Origin: Hysterium pulicare CBS 123377
Taxonomy: Eukaryota; Ascomycota; Dothideomycetes; Hysteriales; Hysteriaceae
Assembly: GCA_000467715.1 (NCBI GenBank)
Contig: AJFK01000036.1
Coordinates: forward strand, 62,001 to 126,000
Direction: 5' to 3'
Length of the DNA: 64,000 nt
Part shown: one piece after another, positions 28,811 through 36,900 of the stretch
Position numbering within the stretch: the first letter of the stretch is position 1
Layout: every line of letters begins with the position of its first letter
The notes under the pieces: generated by a model
Told to the model about the DNA's origin: nothing
Databases searched by the model: none
What the model saw: the letters and a program-made list of their open reading frames with translations, nothing else
Program-made: the position numbers and the translations under genes

Positions 28811-29011
28811 ATGTATACCAAGGCTTTCAGCCTCGCGGCTTCAACTCAACTTCTATTCAGCGTAGTCAACGCGGCGAGCGCCACATTTACTGACTCTGCT
28901 AAGAAGTCTTTCAGCCAGGCCATTGATCATGGCGACACATCTAAGGGAGCATTTCAACAGCAGTATCAATTATTTACCAAGTACTACAAGCCTGGCGGGC
29001 CTCTGCAATAG
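28811..29011 (+). pseudogene. Truncated S28 (prolyl) serine peptidase relic
   Basis: The 66-aa frame starts with a signal peptide-like MYTKAFSLAASTQLLFSVV and continues SFSQAIDHGDTSKGAFQQQY and then KYYKPGGPLQ before a stop. The family start pattern (F-x-Q-x-x-D-H, then T-F-x-Q-R-Y, then Y-Y-K-P-G-G-P) is characteristic of peptidase family S28 (lysosomal Pro-X carboxypeptidase and fungal prolyl endopeptidases), whose full length is roughly 500 aa. Everything after the GGP turn, including the catalytic Ser, Asp and His, is missing: I found no continuation in any frame in the next 1.5 kb. A 15-bp tandem duplication starts exactly at the break. So this is a deletion relic rather than a working gene. 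Confidence 0.72.
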
Positions 29012-29039
29012 GTTTATACATAACAGGTTTATACATAAC
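29010..29039. repeat. 15-bp direct tandem duplication at the relic's break
   Basis: Two exact copies of AGGTTTATACATAAC, the first overlapping the stop codon of the truncated peptidase relic. It marks the point where similarity to S28 ends. Confidence 0.9.
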
Positions 29040-30614
29040 TTTATGACCAGTGACCAATACAACAAATTGAGAAGCAGAAGCCATTCTCCATTGTCCCCCA
29101 TTCGACGATCGATGTAAGCGCTTCTACTATGCATGAGTTCACCGCTGAGATTCTCGGCCGGCCACTCGATCAGTCACCGAGTCCGGAGGCGCAAAATTCG
29201 GTTCCCGGGACTTCTCAGATGACAATCTGAGACGAGCGTCCAAGTCACCAATCTCCGAATTCGGCAACTGCAAATCTCGGGAGAAATGAGACGGGCATGT
29301 GCGTCAACCCTGCTTGGAAAGCTTGATTGGCCTCGAGTGAGCCATCCGCATTGGGACTAGCACCTTAACCCGCTACCTCAGGACCTCGTCCCGTGCAACG
29401 TCCCCTTCGTCCATCAAACTACCCCCTTCGCATGCACCGACTTGATTAATACCATCACATCGCAAGAGAATGACTGCTGGTTTCAAAGGCTGCTCATGGA
29501 CGGAGAGAGGTCTCCACATCTTCTTCCGCCAGCAGAAATGTACCGTACAGTTTGTCACGACTTGTCTGGCCAAACATCCTCAGACACCTTAATATTAACC
29601 TTGTCCGACAACTTGGCATTTGTGGAGACAGTTCAAGCTTGATCAATCCGTAAGACTGACGGATAATAGCTGAGTCCATCTTGGTTGTTGTAGATCATCA
29701 GGTTTCACCGGCCGATGAGAGAAACTCCTATCTGGTAAGGCTCATTAAAATTCCACTTCCGCAATAGGGTAAATTTTCCAGAACTCAAACCCGCTGTTAG
29801 GCCAAAATGTTGCTTTTACCGTGCTTTTCGTTAAACTTGTCTCAGTTGCTTGTCAAAGCCACTTCTTTCTTCATTATTGTCGCTTCAATTCCTTCCACCG
29901 ATCATGTGGTTCGCTTTGATCTTTTAACATCCATACACGCTATCATGGAGAACTTCCAGAATACTTCTAGGCAAGCGTCGAAGAAAGAGAATCAGGTTTG
30001 CGTGGGTGCCAGGTGGTTGCCACATGGTGTGCCACATGCTTCTAAAGGACGTCGCTGAAGGCCAAGATGTGTGGGGTTGAACTAGCGCTTCAATTTCCAT
30101 CTATGAGACTGCGCAGAATTGTCCAAAAGTGGGAAGCCTCTGCATTGAAGGTGATGAGGGCTTTGATCCCATAAGGCTCGGACCGTCATCTCTCCACGGA
30201 AAGTTTGTTCCGGCGGGTCGGCTGCAACCTTGCCTCCACTGCACGAGCCGAATTCAAGGAAGCAAGCGTAGATCACTTTCACCATTCTCTTCATGAGTAC
30301 AATGGTTTGGTGCCTTGAAGCAGGTTTGTGGGTTCCCATTGGTGTTCCAGATTACTTGGGGATCGCGAACAATATTAAGGAGAACAATACTAAGGGCACC
30401 CGTCACCTCCACCAAAGGACCATACCCTCGCCGATCAACGAACCTCTATCTTCAGAACAAACCCCTCAAAGCCACTCTCTTTATGTCTAATACAAACCCT
30501 CGACGCCGAAACTTCAAAGTCCAGAATCCCTTGTCATCAGATGGAGATAAATAGCAAGTCAGAATCGCTGGATCTCGATTCTTCTTCTCTACCAACAACA
30601 TACAATCATTACAA
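29040..30614. other. Gene-poor stretch upstream of the pheromone gene
   Basis: No supported gene. Short frames (for example 29442-29642 and 29807-30058) have no recognised domains. The right-hand part, from about 30400, should contain the promoter and leader of the pheromone gene; it is A/C-rich on the plus strand, as in highly expressed fungal leaders. Confidence 0.5.
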
Positions 30615-30687
30615 GTCAGTAACACACATTCCAAACGCGACAGAAATACTTCAACGAAACCATCAGGACTAACATAATCAAAAACAG
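30615..30687 (+). other. Candidate intron in the pheromone gene leader
   Basis: A donor at 30615 (GTCAGT) or 30619 (GTAACA), a GGACTAACAT branch box at 30666-30675 and an AAACAG acceptor ending at 30687 give a 69-73-nt intron, 34 nt before the ATG. The branch box and acceptor match other introns in this window; the donor is weaker. Confidence 0.5.
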
Positions 30688-30721
30688 ATTTCACTTCACA
30701 ACCACAAAACAAACAAACAAC

Positions 30722-30790
30722 ATGTCTCCCATCACTAAGACCCAAATCGAGGCTCACCCAGTCAACGGCTACGGCTGCACTGTCATGTAA
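30722..30790 (+). CDS. a-factor-type lipopeptide mating pheromone precursor (22 aa, CaaX box)
   Basis: The 22-codon frame reads MSPITKTQIEAHPVNGYG and ends CTVM followed by TAA. Fungal a-factor-like precursors are 20-40 residues, begin with a polar leader, and end in a CaaX box that is farnesylated, cleaved and carboxymethylated; the Neurospora MFA-1 precursor (24 aa) ends in NGYCVVM. Here NGYG-CTVM has the same Asn-Gly-Tyr just before the Cys, and GC(T/S)VM is a motif reported for Hypocrea hybrid pheromones. The ATG sits in a strong context (AACATG, A/C-rich leader) with a probable leader intron. The mature peptide would be exported by a Ste6-like ABC transporter and sensed by a Ste3-type receptor on the partner. 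No such genes or a mating-type locus lie in the window. It is far shorter than usual ORF cut-offs. Confidence 0.85.
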   Translation: MSPITKTQIEAHPVNGYGCTVM

Positions 30791-30844
30791 ATCCCTATTT
30801 ACATAGACTCCAAATGACTTCTGCGCCCATCGAACTTCGACCCT

Positions 30845-30869
30845 TGCTACTACCACTCTAGTAGTAGCA
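30845..30869. repeat. Inverted repeat, 9-bp stem, 7-nt loop
   Basis: TGCTACTAC and GTAGTAGCA form a perfect 9-bp stem around CACTCTA, 55 nt after the pheromone stop codon, so probably in its 3' UTR. Confidence 0.85.
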
Positions 30870-30897
30870 TGCGTCAACAACCCCTCAGTCAGGTGAA

Positions 30898-30942
30898 CTT
30901 GGCTCCAGCATCGACATGCTACTCCGCTTTGCTGGAGCCAAG
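30898..30942. repeat. Inverted repeat, perfect 13-bp stem, 19-nt loop
   Basis: CTTGGCTCCAGCA (30898-30910) and TGCTGGAGCCAAG (30930-30942) are exact reverse complements. This is the strongest hairpin seen in the window and lies 108 nt after the pheromone stop codon. Confidence 0.9.
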
Positions 30943-30981
30943 GGACTGAATCGAAGCAACTCGGATGGTTACTCAAAAGCA

Positions 30982-31028
30982 ACGATCTGACCCTCCACTC
31001 GCGGGATCAGGGCTCAGCTTCAGATCGT
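30982..31028. repeat. Inverted repeat, 9-bp stem
   Basis: ACGATCTGA (30982-30990) pairs with TCAGATCGT (31020-31028). Just inside, CCCT and AGGG can add four pairs across a bulge. It is the third hairpin within 240 nt of the pheromone stop. Confidence 0.8.
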
Positions 31029-31939
31029 CATCAGCTCGCAGAATCGGTCAATAAACTGGGAACGATCCTGTCTCGTCCCTTTGTCTTACCAACCTTTTTC
31101 CACTTCGACAACGACAGATTTATCCGCAAGGATTACTCTGGCTCTACTTTTACAATGACAAACCCACCATCTCACCGGTCATCCGACCGGCGGAGAAACC
31201 CCCCGCGCGGCTCACGGACTTTCTTGACTTTGTACGACTACGGATATTGTTCATCTAGATGGTGTTCGGAGTTCTTCGGCGTTTGGATTGGATATGGGCT
31301 TGTGCTTTTGATACCTTTTATTGTCGGCGGGATAAGAAAACCTCTTTCTCGGGGGATATTTGTACAAAATCTTTCTTCGAAGTGCTTGTGTCTGGATACC
31401 GTTCTAGGCGCCCGCATGGAGAAGTGGTGGGTATAGATAGGACCAACTATTTTCGATCCTTTACAAACTTTTTCCTTTCATTTATTAACTTCGAAACGTG
31501 ATTCAAGTGATTCGATGTCTTGTACTATTCGACTTTGTGAGACTGGCGATATTTCTCTCGATGTTTTGACGTTAGAAGCTGACTAACCGTATCCGGTTCA
31601 GGGGCATTCTTCCATTGTTTGATGAACTTTCGCCGCTAGCATTGTTCTCCCTTAGCATTGTACCCCAACCACTGTTCACATAAAGGAATGTTTGCCCTGT
31701 TTGACTCATACATCCCATATCATCCACTTCCTTGACCCTGTATGTACTCTGTTGTAGCTCAGGCGGAACAATCAAATGTACTCACTCATCATCATCAACA
31801 TCTTTGATCGAACATCAAAATAGAGAATGTCTTCATGATATTCATACTCATTAATCCGTTCATGTGTATCTTTACAGAAACTAAGAGAACCAACTCGTAG
31901 CATATCTTTATCACAGCCCAAAGCACTCGCCCGCACCGC
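31029..31939. other. Intergenic, no gene seen
   Basis: Between the pheromone locus and the 3' end of the phospholipase D gene. Two overlapping frames (31155-31436, 31259-31501) have no coding features. T-rich after 31300. Confidence 0.5.
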
Positions 31940-34900
31940 TCATGTATAAACTTCCTCCGTAAACGCATTCAGCCCCAACCCCTCCTTCGCGATATCCTCA
32001 TCCTTGAGGAAAAGCAAAGGCATCTCCACCACCGTTCCCTTGATCTGACTCAACACTTCCTTAACATCTCTAACACCACCCGGGAAATCTTCCGCAACTA
32101 CATGTCCCCATTTGTACTGAGAGGGCTTTTGATCCAGCTTCTTGTCCTTATCCTTCTCTTCTTCCTTGAAGAATCGCTCGTAGTAGTCATCATATTGCTT
32201 CCAAGTCCTCACACCATCATGTGGTACAGGATGGAAGACCTTCGCAAAAGCACCCGTGTTCGTGTTGGCGCGGATATTCCAAAAGTTCTGAAAGTCGTCG
32301 GACAGGGGATCTGCAACTTGCTGGTCTTCGGGGGAGTCCCAGTCATAGATGTTGGGAACGCCAATAGGTTCGTAATTCTGGTCTGGATGATCTATGACTT
32401 GGGGTTTGAGAAGACCAAGGTGCTTGCGAAATATTTGGCGACGGAGAGAAGCAGCGAATTTGGAGGCACGATAAGGACGGCCATCCATGTATGATTCGCA
32501 TGGTGCGGGGTCTTCGACTATGATGGCTATTTCAGAGTCGTGGTCGCCAAGTTGGGAGCGATCGTTCAAGTTTGCTGAACCGCAGATGACAATGCGGTCG
32601 TCGGCGATCAGCAACTATATGGAGTCAAAGTATACTCACGCAAATGATGAGGGTTTAGATACTAACCTTGCTGTGAATGTAAAGCTCCTCGCTCACGAAC
32701 GCATCAATCTCATCCATAGCTCCGCCCTCCCATGGCACATTTCGAATGTCTTCACCACCAAGCATGTAGCATTCCGCTACAGAATCCCACCTTCCACTAC
32801 CTAGGCCTTGCATACTTCCAATCTCGGAAGCACCTTGTTGGTATGCCTGATAAGCGTCTGGTTTACTCTGACCAGGAGTTTGACCATATCCGGAATCCAT
32901 CTCGTATACGGGCGCCGGCTCTTGTCCAAGTGATTCAGGAGGTGGCGCACGATATGGCTGATAAGTCTCTTTACTGTCGCTTGCGTAGACGCCGCCATAG
33001 GCAACATCGTGCTCCTCTCGAGCCTGCTCATATGAAACGCCGCTGCGTTGTTCCGCAGCCCGCATTGCTCCGCTTGCATTGATACGATCATAACTAAAGC
33101 TGTTAGTAACGGATTTGATACAGAGCTTGTCTAGCTAAATCTAAAGAAAACTAAAGAAGTGATGTTTGAAAGCCAAACTCATACCTGCGCAGGTTGTAGA
33201 ATCGGATGTATTCCACAGGATTGAAGCCAGCCTTTGCGATTGTCTCATAGATACTGTAACCACCTCTGTTAATGGAATTATATTGAAATTCCATGATGGC
33301 ACGAGTGCTGAGAGCGTCATCGCTCCTAAGATCTCCAGCGAATGCAGGGACTGCCGGCATGAGGACCATCATTTTGTACTTTTCGCCATTTCTGGCGGCT
33401 CGAAGAATGCGCTCCACAATTGCGGCGGCGATCTTATTCTTGATTGGTTTCTGACCATCGGACGTCGCAGTGATAAAAAATTGGTTTTCAATATAAACGA
33501 AGTGCTCGCTGTTGCGAATTACTTCGCAATACGCATTAGCGATTGAATGCTATTAACGTCAGTATGTCTCGCGCAAAGCATTAAAGACAGCAGACGCAGT
33601 AATACTGTCGCCAGCCTTCCCACATCTTACACGATGGAAACGGCGGATACATACCTCGAGTGGAACACCGTGGCTCCATTTCGCGCAGCTGCGAGCAATT
33701 TGACACGTAACACCGTTCCGCGATGCATCAGAGTATTGCTCCCCTTGTTGGCTGTGGTGATGACGTTGTTCCATCCGTTGCATGCCTTCACCGACACGCC
33801 CCCGAAGTTTCTCGCGGAAACTGCCTCCTTGGCCGTCGTTTCCAAACAGTCCACGTTCCCCCTCATGTTCCCCTTCGTATTCGTCGCCACCGAACCCGCG
33901 TTGGTCTTCCTCGCCTTCCTCCATACTGCGGTATTGTTGCGAAGGTGGAGGCGGGTACTGACCCGATGAATCTGGACCAAGGAAGCTTGCCGGAACATGT
34001 CCAGGCGGTGACAGTTTCGAGTATCTGTCGTCCTTGCGAACGTTGTATTTTTCATCATAGATGAAGTTCCATCGTTCGACGAAATGCTCCTTTAGATCTT
34101 GGACAACTGGGCCTGTCAGGCAGAGTGACAAATCAGACCAGCCCATGCGCGAGTTCTTGGTTCTGTCTAATTTATTATTCTGCCAATTGACAACATCCTG
34201 GAAGTCCATTATTCTGGCGTTGTTGTAATCCTGGCCGGGGAAAACAATTCTATCAAGATCTCCTGGGTGGACATCTGCAATGGAATGCTGGTTGGTGTCC
34301 CAACGCCCATAGCAAAGATCCAGCCCTCCCATGAAGGCGGTGTTGCCGTCTATTAGGCAGAGTTTCTCGTGATGAGCCCAATATAACACTGTATCCTCAT
34401 TCATTCCGTAGATGGCTTTCAGACTATCCCCGGGAAGCTGGGCCAATTTTGAGGTACTGAGGGACATGTTTTGTAGCGAAGATATGAAGGAAGACTGAAG
34501 GGTCTGCCGGTCTGGAAGATGGTCTGGATGCCGGAACACGGCGATATTTGGGTGGAGGTCTTCCAAGGCATGCTTTGTATGGGATGAAGAGACTGTAATA
34601 GGCGGAGCAATCAGCGGGTTCGTCTTCTCGACTTCTTCGAGCGATTTGAATATGACGTGTAGGCCCGCACGTGTGAGAGATTTGGTAAAACGGTCCGTTG
34701 AACCAGGAAGAAGGGAATGCAGGTATTCGGGAAGAGTTGGGTTCAACAACTTACGAGTCAATGCTTGAGTTACCTCCTTATAAACAATGATATTGACCTT
34801 GACGCCTCGCTGGGCGGCAGATTGCAACATTCGATCAATTCGATATTGCTCGAACTTGGCTGGAGGTCTCCGGAGATACAGCTCTGGTGAGAGCCACCAA

Positions 34901-35674
34901 TCGAGGATCCATATTGACTCCCTGGCACGCTCCAAAGCCACCGAAACTGCCCACATGTAGCCGCAAGCATCCACATACCATTTGATATCGTTTCCGTATC
35001 TCTCTGGTGCAAAGCTGAGGAATCGATGCTCCGCATGGTGGTCATGAGTGCCGTCACTACATGTGCCACTATCGTGGGTATGGCTGTGTATTTCTCCTTG
35101 GCCGGAAAGCCTATCTTTTATCTCACTGCCAATTCCATGTATAGCCCCATGCAGCTTATCGAACATAGAGGACATTCCGCCGCCGCCGCTAGAGTAGGAT
35201 TGCTGAGGTTGGGAGGAGGATTGCTGGCCAAGGTGGGGCTGGTAGGTCTGCGTGATATTCTATGGGATACGTCAATTCCAGTTCTTTCAACAGTAAAGTA
35301 TGCTGGAGGTATAGGATATAGGATATAGGATATAGGATATAGGATATAGAATATAGATAATGACGGAGGGCCAAAAGGAAATAATGAAAACCTTGGAATA
35401 GAGGGGTAATACTAGGGCCCATGATGGACTAGAGCTCACTTGCTTCAGGGCAAGAAGGTCTCTCGTACTGGAGAGGAGGACTCAGGAACGGAGTTGTAGA
35501 AGGCAGGCATGAATGAAGCATGCAAGAAGATACTCTTACTGATTGCTCGGCCTGTGGTTTCCTGCCAAAAAAGCGTCTCGATACGTCTCCAATAATGCCC
35601 CTCTCTCCTTCGCCCTCTTGTTGGCCATGGTAGTCCCCATACGCCAACGGATCGTCACCACGATTGGAAGCCAT
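31940..35674 (-). CDS. Phospholipase D with two HKD motifs
   Basis: Hydrolyses phosphatidylcholine to phosphatidic acid and choline. Five exons: 35674-35540, 35247-33655, 33549-33185, 33093-32667 and 32614-31940; 1,064 aa, phases consistent. HKD1 is HHEKLCLIDGNTAFMGGLDL (His338); HKD2 is IHSKLLIADDRIVICGSANL (His838), split by an intron right after HSK. IVPSQ-like and FYNLRSYDRIN segments support eukaryotic PLD. There is no PX or PH domain; the N-terminus is Gly/Gln-rich, followed by a His-rich patch. Unusual insertions of acidic/Gly-rich sequence (QRGFGGDEYEGEHEGERG) between the two halves and a Gln/Pro-rich insert before HKD2 lengthen the protein compared with minimal PLDs. All catalytic residues are present. 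Intron 1 carries a heptanucleotide repeat. Confidence 0.9.
35311..35359. repeat. Heptanucleotide microsatellite (ATAGGAT)n in PLD intron 1
   Basis: Five exact copies of ATAGGAT followed by two diverged copies (ATAGAAT, ATAGATA), inside the first intron of the phospholipase D gene. Confidence 0.92.
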
Positions 35675-36178: not shown

Positions 36179-36900
36179 ATGCCTCCCGCATCTGCATTCG
36201 CGCTTTCCACCAGACTCACCACGCGTGCAATTGTCCCTGTTGCCTCCCATTTCGTTCGTCCTACAGCAGCATATCTAGCTTCTCGCGGCTTTAAGTCCAC
36301 AGCCTCCAACATGGCAAGCAAGCCCATTGTAACACTGGATGTGAGTGTCTCTGGCCAATTGTCAACCACGCTTTGCTGATTAGGCATGTCCAGTCCTCCC
36401 TCATCCCTCGCCTTCCCGAGTCCTCCCCAACCCTCTTTGAAGCCAAGAAAGCGAAGAACCTTACTTTCGAAGCCATCGCAAAGAAACTCGGTCGTGAAGA
36501 GGTGGCAGTTGCAGCACTATTCTACGGCCAAGCTCAAGCCTCTGCCGAGGATGTGAAGAACCTATCCGAAGTTCTCGATATTCCCTCGGAAAAACTAGAG
36601 TCGCAGCTTATGGGCATTCCCGACCGGGGAAGGACAATGGATATGCCCCCAAGGGAGCCATTGATCTACCGCTTGTTTGAGATCGTGCAGAATTATGGAT
36701 ATGCTTATAAGGCTGTGCTGAATGAGAAGTTTGGAGACGGCATTATGAGCGCTATCAGCTTTTCAACCAAAGTTGAGAAGGAAACGGATGAGAAGGGCGA
36801 TTGGGCTGTCATTACTCTCCGCGGCAAGTGGTGAGTTGTTCTTGTTCCAATAACGTCGCATGTCTAACAAGCTCTCAGGCTCCCATATTCTCGATTCTAG
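36179..36900 (+). CDS. cyn1: Cyanate hydratase (cyanase), possible mitochondrial presequence
   Basis: Converts cyanate plus bicarbonate to ammonia and CO2. Exons 36179-36340, 36394-36830 and 36879-36900 give 206 aa; the last exon encodes only the end of KWLPYSRF. The helical N-terminal domain ([20 protein letters not shown]) and the C-terminal catalytic domain ([31 protein letters not shown]) carry the active-site Arg, Glu and Ser in the YRLFE and IMSAI motifs. The first 44 residues ([20 protein letters not shown]) are basic and hydroxylated without acids, like a mitochondrial presequence, and are followed by [10 protein letters not shown], which resembles the usual fungal cyanase start. So two starts or dual targeting are possible. 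Confidence 0.93.

Follow-up and report, generated by a model that had tools for sequence, protein, structure and literature searches.

Introduction

Precursors of a-factor-type mating pheromones pass through an established pathway: the CaaX cysteine is farnesylated (where X = Met), the aaX residues are removed, the cysteine is carboxymethylated and the N-terminus is trimmed, after which the lipopeptide is exported by a Ste6-type transporter and perceived by a Ste3-type receptor. The genes that encode these precursors are tiny and often unannotated, and PMC10569646 notes that, for this reason, few components of mating in ascomycetes are as difficult to locate.

In Sordariomycetes, the account of the locus in PMC3068285 places the a-factor precursor near a cyanate lyase gene in N. 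crassa, M. grisea, G. zeae, C. globosum and P. anserina. The locus also contains EBP2 and MYND zinc-finger genes, with varying order and orientation, and the Hypocrea a-factor is described in the same account as having no cyanate lyase link. Ceratocystidaceae a-factor genes, in the published descriptions of their surroundings, adjoin tubulin, laccase-1 or other genes.

A putative Leotiomycete a-factor, represented by B. cinerea BCIN_13g03330, has homologues in at least 111 species. According to the sections of PMC10569646 that describe this family, its members are 45–64 aa long, with a Ser/Thr-rich N-terminus, a GY and an end that is most commonly CTVM; the passage on microsynteny reports no usable result from a search for the a-factor in that class. 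We also searched the literature text for where BCIN_13g03330 lies with respect to the Botrytis cyanate lyase, which gave nothing usable. Fusarium a-factor peptides, as presented in the relevant parts of PMC9769807 and PMC11077750, carry CTVM with GY nearby, and synthetic peptides with these same GY and CTVM elements have been used in chemotropism assays. The h-type precursor HPP1 of Trichoderma and Fusarium is summarized in PMC3068285 as having three copies of (L/I)GC(T/S)VM together with Kex2 sites.

Results

A tiny ORF ends in a rare CaaX box

We analysed a 64-kb stretch of DNA, hereafter the window, in which a sequence-only reading had proposed a farnesylated pheromone gene. The window is filamentous ascomycete DNA of about 48% GC, with genes of the Tom40, Ubc6-like E2, DHHC, rhomboid, cyclin, fungal rhodopsin-domain, P450 and Kinetochor_Ybp2 kinds; a tRNA scan across it returned none. 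Its Tom40 has identities of 57.9% and 55.0% to two PDB Tom40 chains, which we take to be from Sordariales; over that stretch, the identity between the two chains is 75.1%. These identities suggest a lineage outside that of the two chains, without fixing the class. In viral contigs, Tom40 gave pattern matches, and tblastn confirmed no relative among them.

Elsewhere in the window, an ORF at 28811–29014 has a signal-peptide-like start, is truncated by a stop, beyond which no long frame occurs for about 1.5 kb. It has no Pfam match, presumably resembles the start of an S28-type serine peptidase and is possibly a gene relic.

The proposed pheromone gene is as follows:

30722–30790, + strand: very probable a-factor-type pheromone precursor ORF of 22 codons, with CaaX/CpaX box CTVM and Cys19 as the predicted farnesylation site

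The sequence-only reading had described an ATG, 22 codons ending in YGCTVM, a TAA and a strong start context, and the frame reads exactly so. It translates as MSPITKTQIEAHPVNGYGCTVM with TAA next, and its ATG stands in the context AACAACATG, with AACAAC as against the weaker CATCAG at an upstream ATG (30541). By eye, the N-terminus appears polar, MSPITKTQIEAHP. The window contains 797 ATG-to-stop ORFs of 15–100 aa, counting both strands, and no other has a CxVM end. A stricter CaaX pattern closes three of the 797, compared with a mean of 1.51 in shuffles, so a CaaX end is by itself uninformative. The CxVM end, in contrast, is rare: it occurs on average 0.02 times per shuffle in 200 dinucleotide-preserving shuffles of the window, and a GY near a CxVM end arose in none of the 200.

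Codon usage was also considered. C is the third base in 12 of the 22 codons, compared with 28% of 5,015 training codons, and the codon score is among the eight highest for 638 small ORFs (the pheromone ORF included). Equally long coding stretches match or exceed this score in 5.3% of cases; because codon bias in this genome is low, the score adds little, and we dropped codon bias both as proof of coding and as an arbiter between the start codons discussed below. Antisense coding across the ORF was rejected as well: the open frame at 30455–31006 on the − strand has no Pfam match, and its first ATG yields only 49 aa (30452–30601), stopping short of the pheromone ORF. The DNA pattern for NGYGCTVM-stop had no matches in viral contigs, and that for NGYGCxVM, with several residues permitted at x, had none in prokaryote genomes; both outcomes are what a fungal gene would lead one to expect. 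Searches of literature text for the strings GYGCTVM and GYCVVM returned no matches for either.

The ORF resembles published Sordariomycete precursors

For comparison, we used the Magnaporthe and Chaetomium (C. globosum) precursors as printed in section 8 of PMC3068285, the Chaetomium one without its CaaX box. In global alignment to the Magnaporthe precursor, the pheromone ORF ranks first among the 524 window peptides of 15–40 aa, with a score equalled by one of 20,000 shuffles in which the Met was fixed. This match spans both ends of the peptide, starting with MSPxTK. Against the Chaetomium precursor, the ORF ties with one other peptide for first of the 524, a weak match whose score is reached by 458 of 20,000 shuffles. 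The N-terminal 13 residues alone also match weakly: scores as good come from 371 of 20,000 shuffles for Magnaporthe and from 2,623 of 20,000 for Chaetomium.

Several features are held in common with the Sordariomycete a-factors (N. crassa mfa-1 and the Magnaporthe, Chaetomium, Podospora and Gibberella ppg2 precursors). The ORF is likewise tiny and has a Thr/Lys-containing N-terminus. It shares an MSP/MPS start with the Magnaporthe and Chaetomium precursors, a CaaX box with final Met with the former and an NGY near the end with the latter. Unlike these precursors, it has a Gly between GY and Cys. The earlier claim that NGY directly precedes the Cys, as in Neurospora, is inexact in this detail, since a Gly intervenes (NGYG-C).

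The CTVM end and GY are also common to the ORF and the Leotiomycete BCIN_13g03330 family, compared here by its description, and a GC(T/S)VM end is common to the ORF and HPP1. This last motif had been quoted in the sequence-only reading, and it stands as (LI)GC(TS)VM in the abstract of PMC3068285. We considered an h-type precursor and rejected it; the pheromone ORF has one motif copy and no dibasic/Kex2 site.

The ORF lies near a cyanate lyase gene

The published linkage was known to us before the window was scanned for cyanate lyase. Two genes are relevant to it here:

36295–36834, + strand: main open frame of cyanate lyase, the syntenic marker of the a-factor locus (gene about 36179–36900, with two introns, by eye)
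31940–35259, − strand: multi-exon phospholipase D gene, in the interval from the pheromone ORF to cyanate lyase

Cyanate lyase is found 5.5 kb downstream of the pheromone ORF, and is assigned by profile matches and structural-database identity (Pfam PF02560, E 5.1e-31; NCBIfam cynS, 149.5 bits against a cut-off of 113.3; 79.7% identity to PDB 6xgt across 133 columns). Assuming a 40-Mb genome with one cyanate lyase gene, the chance of finding it within 6 kb is about 3e-4, and that of finding it anywhere in the 64-kb window about 2e-3. A nearby cyanate lyase is reported for several Sordariomycete a-factor loci, and since the link is not general even in that class, its presence here is informative. 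The linkage is the strongest single support for the a-factor reading.

The arrangement differs from the published Sordariomycete loci in that a phospholipase D gene separates the pheromone ORF from cyanate lyase. In addition, the ORF lies upstream of cyanate lyase, whereas the locus descriptions in PMC3068285 place the precursor downstream in C. globosum and M. grisea. EBP2 and MYND gave no Pfam match in the frames scanned, which were 54 of the 92 window frames of at least 110 aa and included 26 of the 27 of at least 200 aa. The phospholipase D gene matches a PDB phospholipase D1 chain (E 2.1e-48), with Pfam PLDc_2 matches that fall under the curated cut-off; its protein gave pattern matches in viral and prokaryote contigs, and tblastn confirmed no relative there.

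Two further observations concern these genes. A heptamer microsatellite (TATAGGA, 6.7 copies) occupies 35310–35356, flanking the phospholipase D gene on its 5′ side. The cyanate lyase gene (36179–36900) appears by eye to have an extra N-terminal stretch before its first intron that is mitochondrial-targeting-like.

A predicted intron allows two start codons

The region just before the ORF contains three features that bear on the transcript and its start codon:

30541–30614, + strand: possible first coding exon of a 58-aa precursor, with ATG 30541 spliced in frame; context CATCAG
30615–30687, + strand: predicted 73-nt intron, in the leader or inside the coding region of the longer model
30688–30721, + strand: leader following the intron, A/C-rich (A or C at 29 of 34 nt) and free of G

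The sequence-only reading had called a probable leader intron and an A/C-rich leader, and both were recovered. The predicted intron is well formed, with donor GTCAGT at 30615, branch site CTAAC at 30669 and a CAG ending at 30687, 34 nt before ATG 30722; it is one of four strict intron-pattern matches on both strands of the window. By eye, cyanate lyase shows a comparable GTGAGT...CTAAC...CAG intron. An A+C count of at least 29 is reached by 13 of the 63,966 overlapping 34-mers of the window, the leader itself counted. Judged by these signals, the intron and leader would fit an mRNA. The P. anserina genes MFM and MFP are termed intron-less where PMC3125171 describes them and, if leaders are meant, differ from both models considered here.

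The 22-codon length claimed earlier is less settled than the frame itself. A stretch of 414 bases upstream of the donor holds four ATGs. One of them, at 30541, is in frame after splicing, and translation from it would give MEINSKSESLDLDSSSLPTTYNHYKFHFTTTKQTNN followed by the 22 residues, 58 aa in all with the same C-terminal end. An alternative donor at 30619 joins none of the four ATGs to the pheromone ORF in frame. The same pheromone gene could then encode a 58-aa precursor that starts at ATG 30541, with the intron inside the coding region and a Ser/Thr-rich pro-region of 36 residues. We regard this as a serious contender, if the less probable of the two forms. The spliced frame is open, 12 of its first 36 residues are S or T, and both its length and its Ser/Thr-rich N-terminus agree with the Leotiomycete a-factors as described in PMC10569646 (45–64 aa), a length that the 22-aa model lacks. 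Codon usage is compatible with it too: the 36 added codons score as coding sequence here usually does, above 37% of coding windows. Against the longer form, the CATCAG context at 30541 is weaker than AACAAC at 30722, and the peptide encoded from 30722 opens with MSPxTK, in agreement with the first residues of the Magnaporthe precursor. An in-frame join, moreover, has about a one-in-three chance of arising. Finally, a TATA-like GATAAATAG (by eye) sits just inside the proposed exon, so ATG 30541 may precede the transcript start. On balance, the 22-codon form is somewhat favoured over the 58-codon form. The mature peptide would be identical under both models.

Three hairpins follow the ORF

Downstream of the stop codon, three perfect stems are closely spaced:

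30845–30869, + strand: 3′ hairpin 1, 9-bp perfect stem, z −3.3
30898–30942, + strand: 3′ hairpin 2, 13-bp perfect stem, z −4.2
30982–31028, + strand: 3′ hairpin 3, 9-bp perfect stem, z −1.9, the weakest of the three

Hairpin 2 is the longest perfect inverted repeat in the window with a loop of 3–40 nt, and nine of 200 shuffles fold as well as hairpin 3. Together, they make up three of the ten perfect inverted-repeat clusters (arm at least 9, loop 3–40) in the 64 kb; under random placement, three within 240 bp has a p of 6e-6, for a grouping chosen post hoc. RNA folding of 30791–31060 gave a z of −3.2, and in raw folding energy 99 of 946 equally long windows fold as well or better. Rfam yielded no matches in the window at gathering scores, and none in 30300–31300 at E up to 1. 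The hairpins are likeliest an mRNA 3′ UTR or 3′-end structure.

An upstream repeat carries candidate MAT sites

One feature upstream of the ORF may bear on its regulation:

30367–30395, + strand: tandem repeat of period 15, 1.9 copies, 92% matches, containing two AACAAT sites

The two AACAAT sites lie about 340–355 bp upstream of the pheromone ORF and form the only AACAAT/ATTGTT pair within 20 bp among the 47 such sites of the window. In Verticillium, the promoter analysis in PMC11077750 reports AACAAT as a motif for MAT protein binding in VdPpg2 and VdPre1. The pair is a hint of candidate HMG/MAT protein sites, as a single pair picked post hoc. A TGAAACA site is absent from the 1 kb upstream of the pheromone ORF.

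These sites are relevant to a further alternative, one that overlaps the a-factor identity: the gene could be a true family member with a role outside mating (hyphal cohesion, self-signalling or other) and no function as a mating-type-specific attractant. Such a role is suggested by the sections of PMC10569646 on three Leotiomycetes, in which expression of the putative a-factor was not mating-type-dependent and the authors doubted the classical mating role; the paper also cites a conglutination role for the N. crassa a-factor. Conversely, mating type is described as activating the pheromone precursor genes of P. anserina, and for N. crassa the title of a cited paper states the same. The AACAAT sites would also fit MAT control, but they arise by tandem duplication and are not independent. 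Weighing these points, we consider a purely non-mating role rather improbable.

That the ORF is a chance one whose last codons read CTVM by accident is very improbable: it has only 22 codons, and about 1.5 strict CaaX ends per window are expected at random, but the scarcity of CxVM ends and of GY-plus-CxVM ends in shuffles, the full-length match to the Magnaporthe precursor and the cyanate lyase linkage all speak against it.

Discussion

We conclude with high confidence that the ORF at 30722–30790 is a filamentous ascomycete's gene for an a-factor-type (PPG2/MFA-1-like) pheromone precursor. This identity is based on the ORF with its CaaX end, its resemblance to a published precursor, its linkage to cyanate lyase and the signals of the predicted intron. 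The same identity had been proposed from the letters alone, and it is now supported by the linkage and the Magnaporthe match. The gene adds to the known a-factor family and is not a novel kind of thing; it is easily overlooked in gene annotation.

By analogy with the established pathway, we infer how the product would be processed and used. Translation of the spliced mRNA would most likely begin at ATG 30722 and yield a precursor of 22 aa, which would be farnesylated at Cys19 of the CTVM box. TVM would then be removed and the cysteine carboxymethylated, and N-terminal trimming would leave roughly ...VNGYGC. The resulting lipopeptide would be exported via a Ste6-type transporter and perceived by a Ste3/PRE-1-type receptor on the partner.

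More tentatively, the fungus may lie outside the Sordariomycetes, perhaps in the Leotiomycetes. Its a-factor at the same cyanate-lyase locus would then make the locus older than the split between these classes; the published precursors of 45–64 aa may include a translated leader, with a real length of about 22 aa; and the tandem hairpins may be a functional 3′ UTR element.

An a-factor tied to the cyanate-lyase locus provides evidence of orthology beyond sequence alone. If the species is not a Sordariomycete, the linkage would allow a-factors to be sought by synteny where the published microsynteny search in Leotiomycetes yielded nothing usable, and the correct start codon of the Leotiomycete family would become testable.
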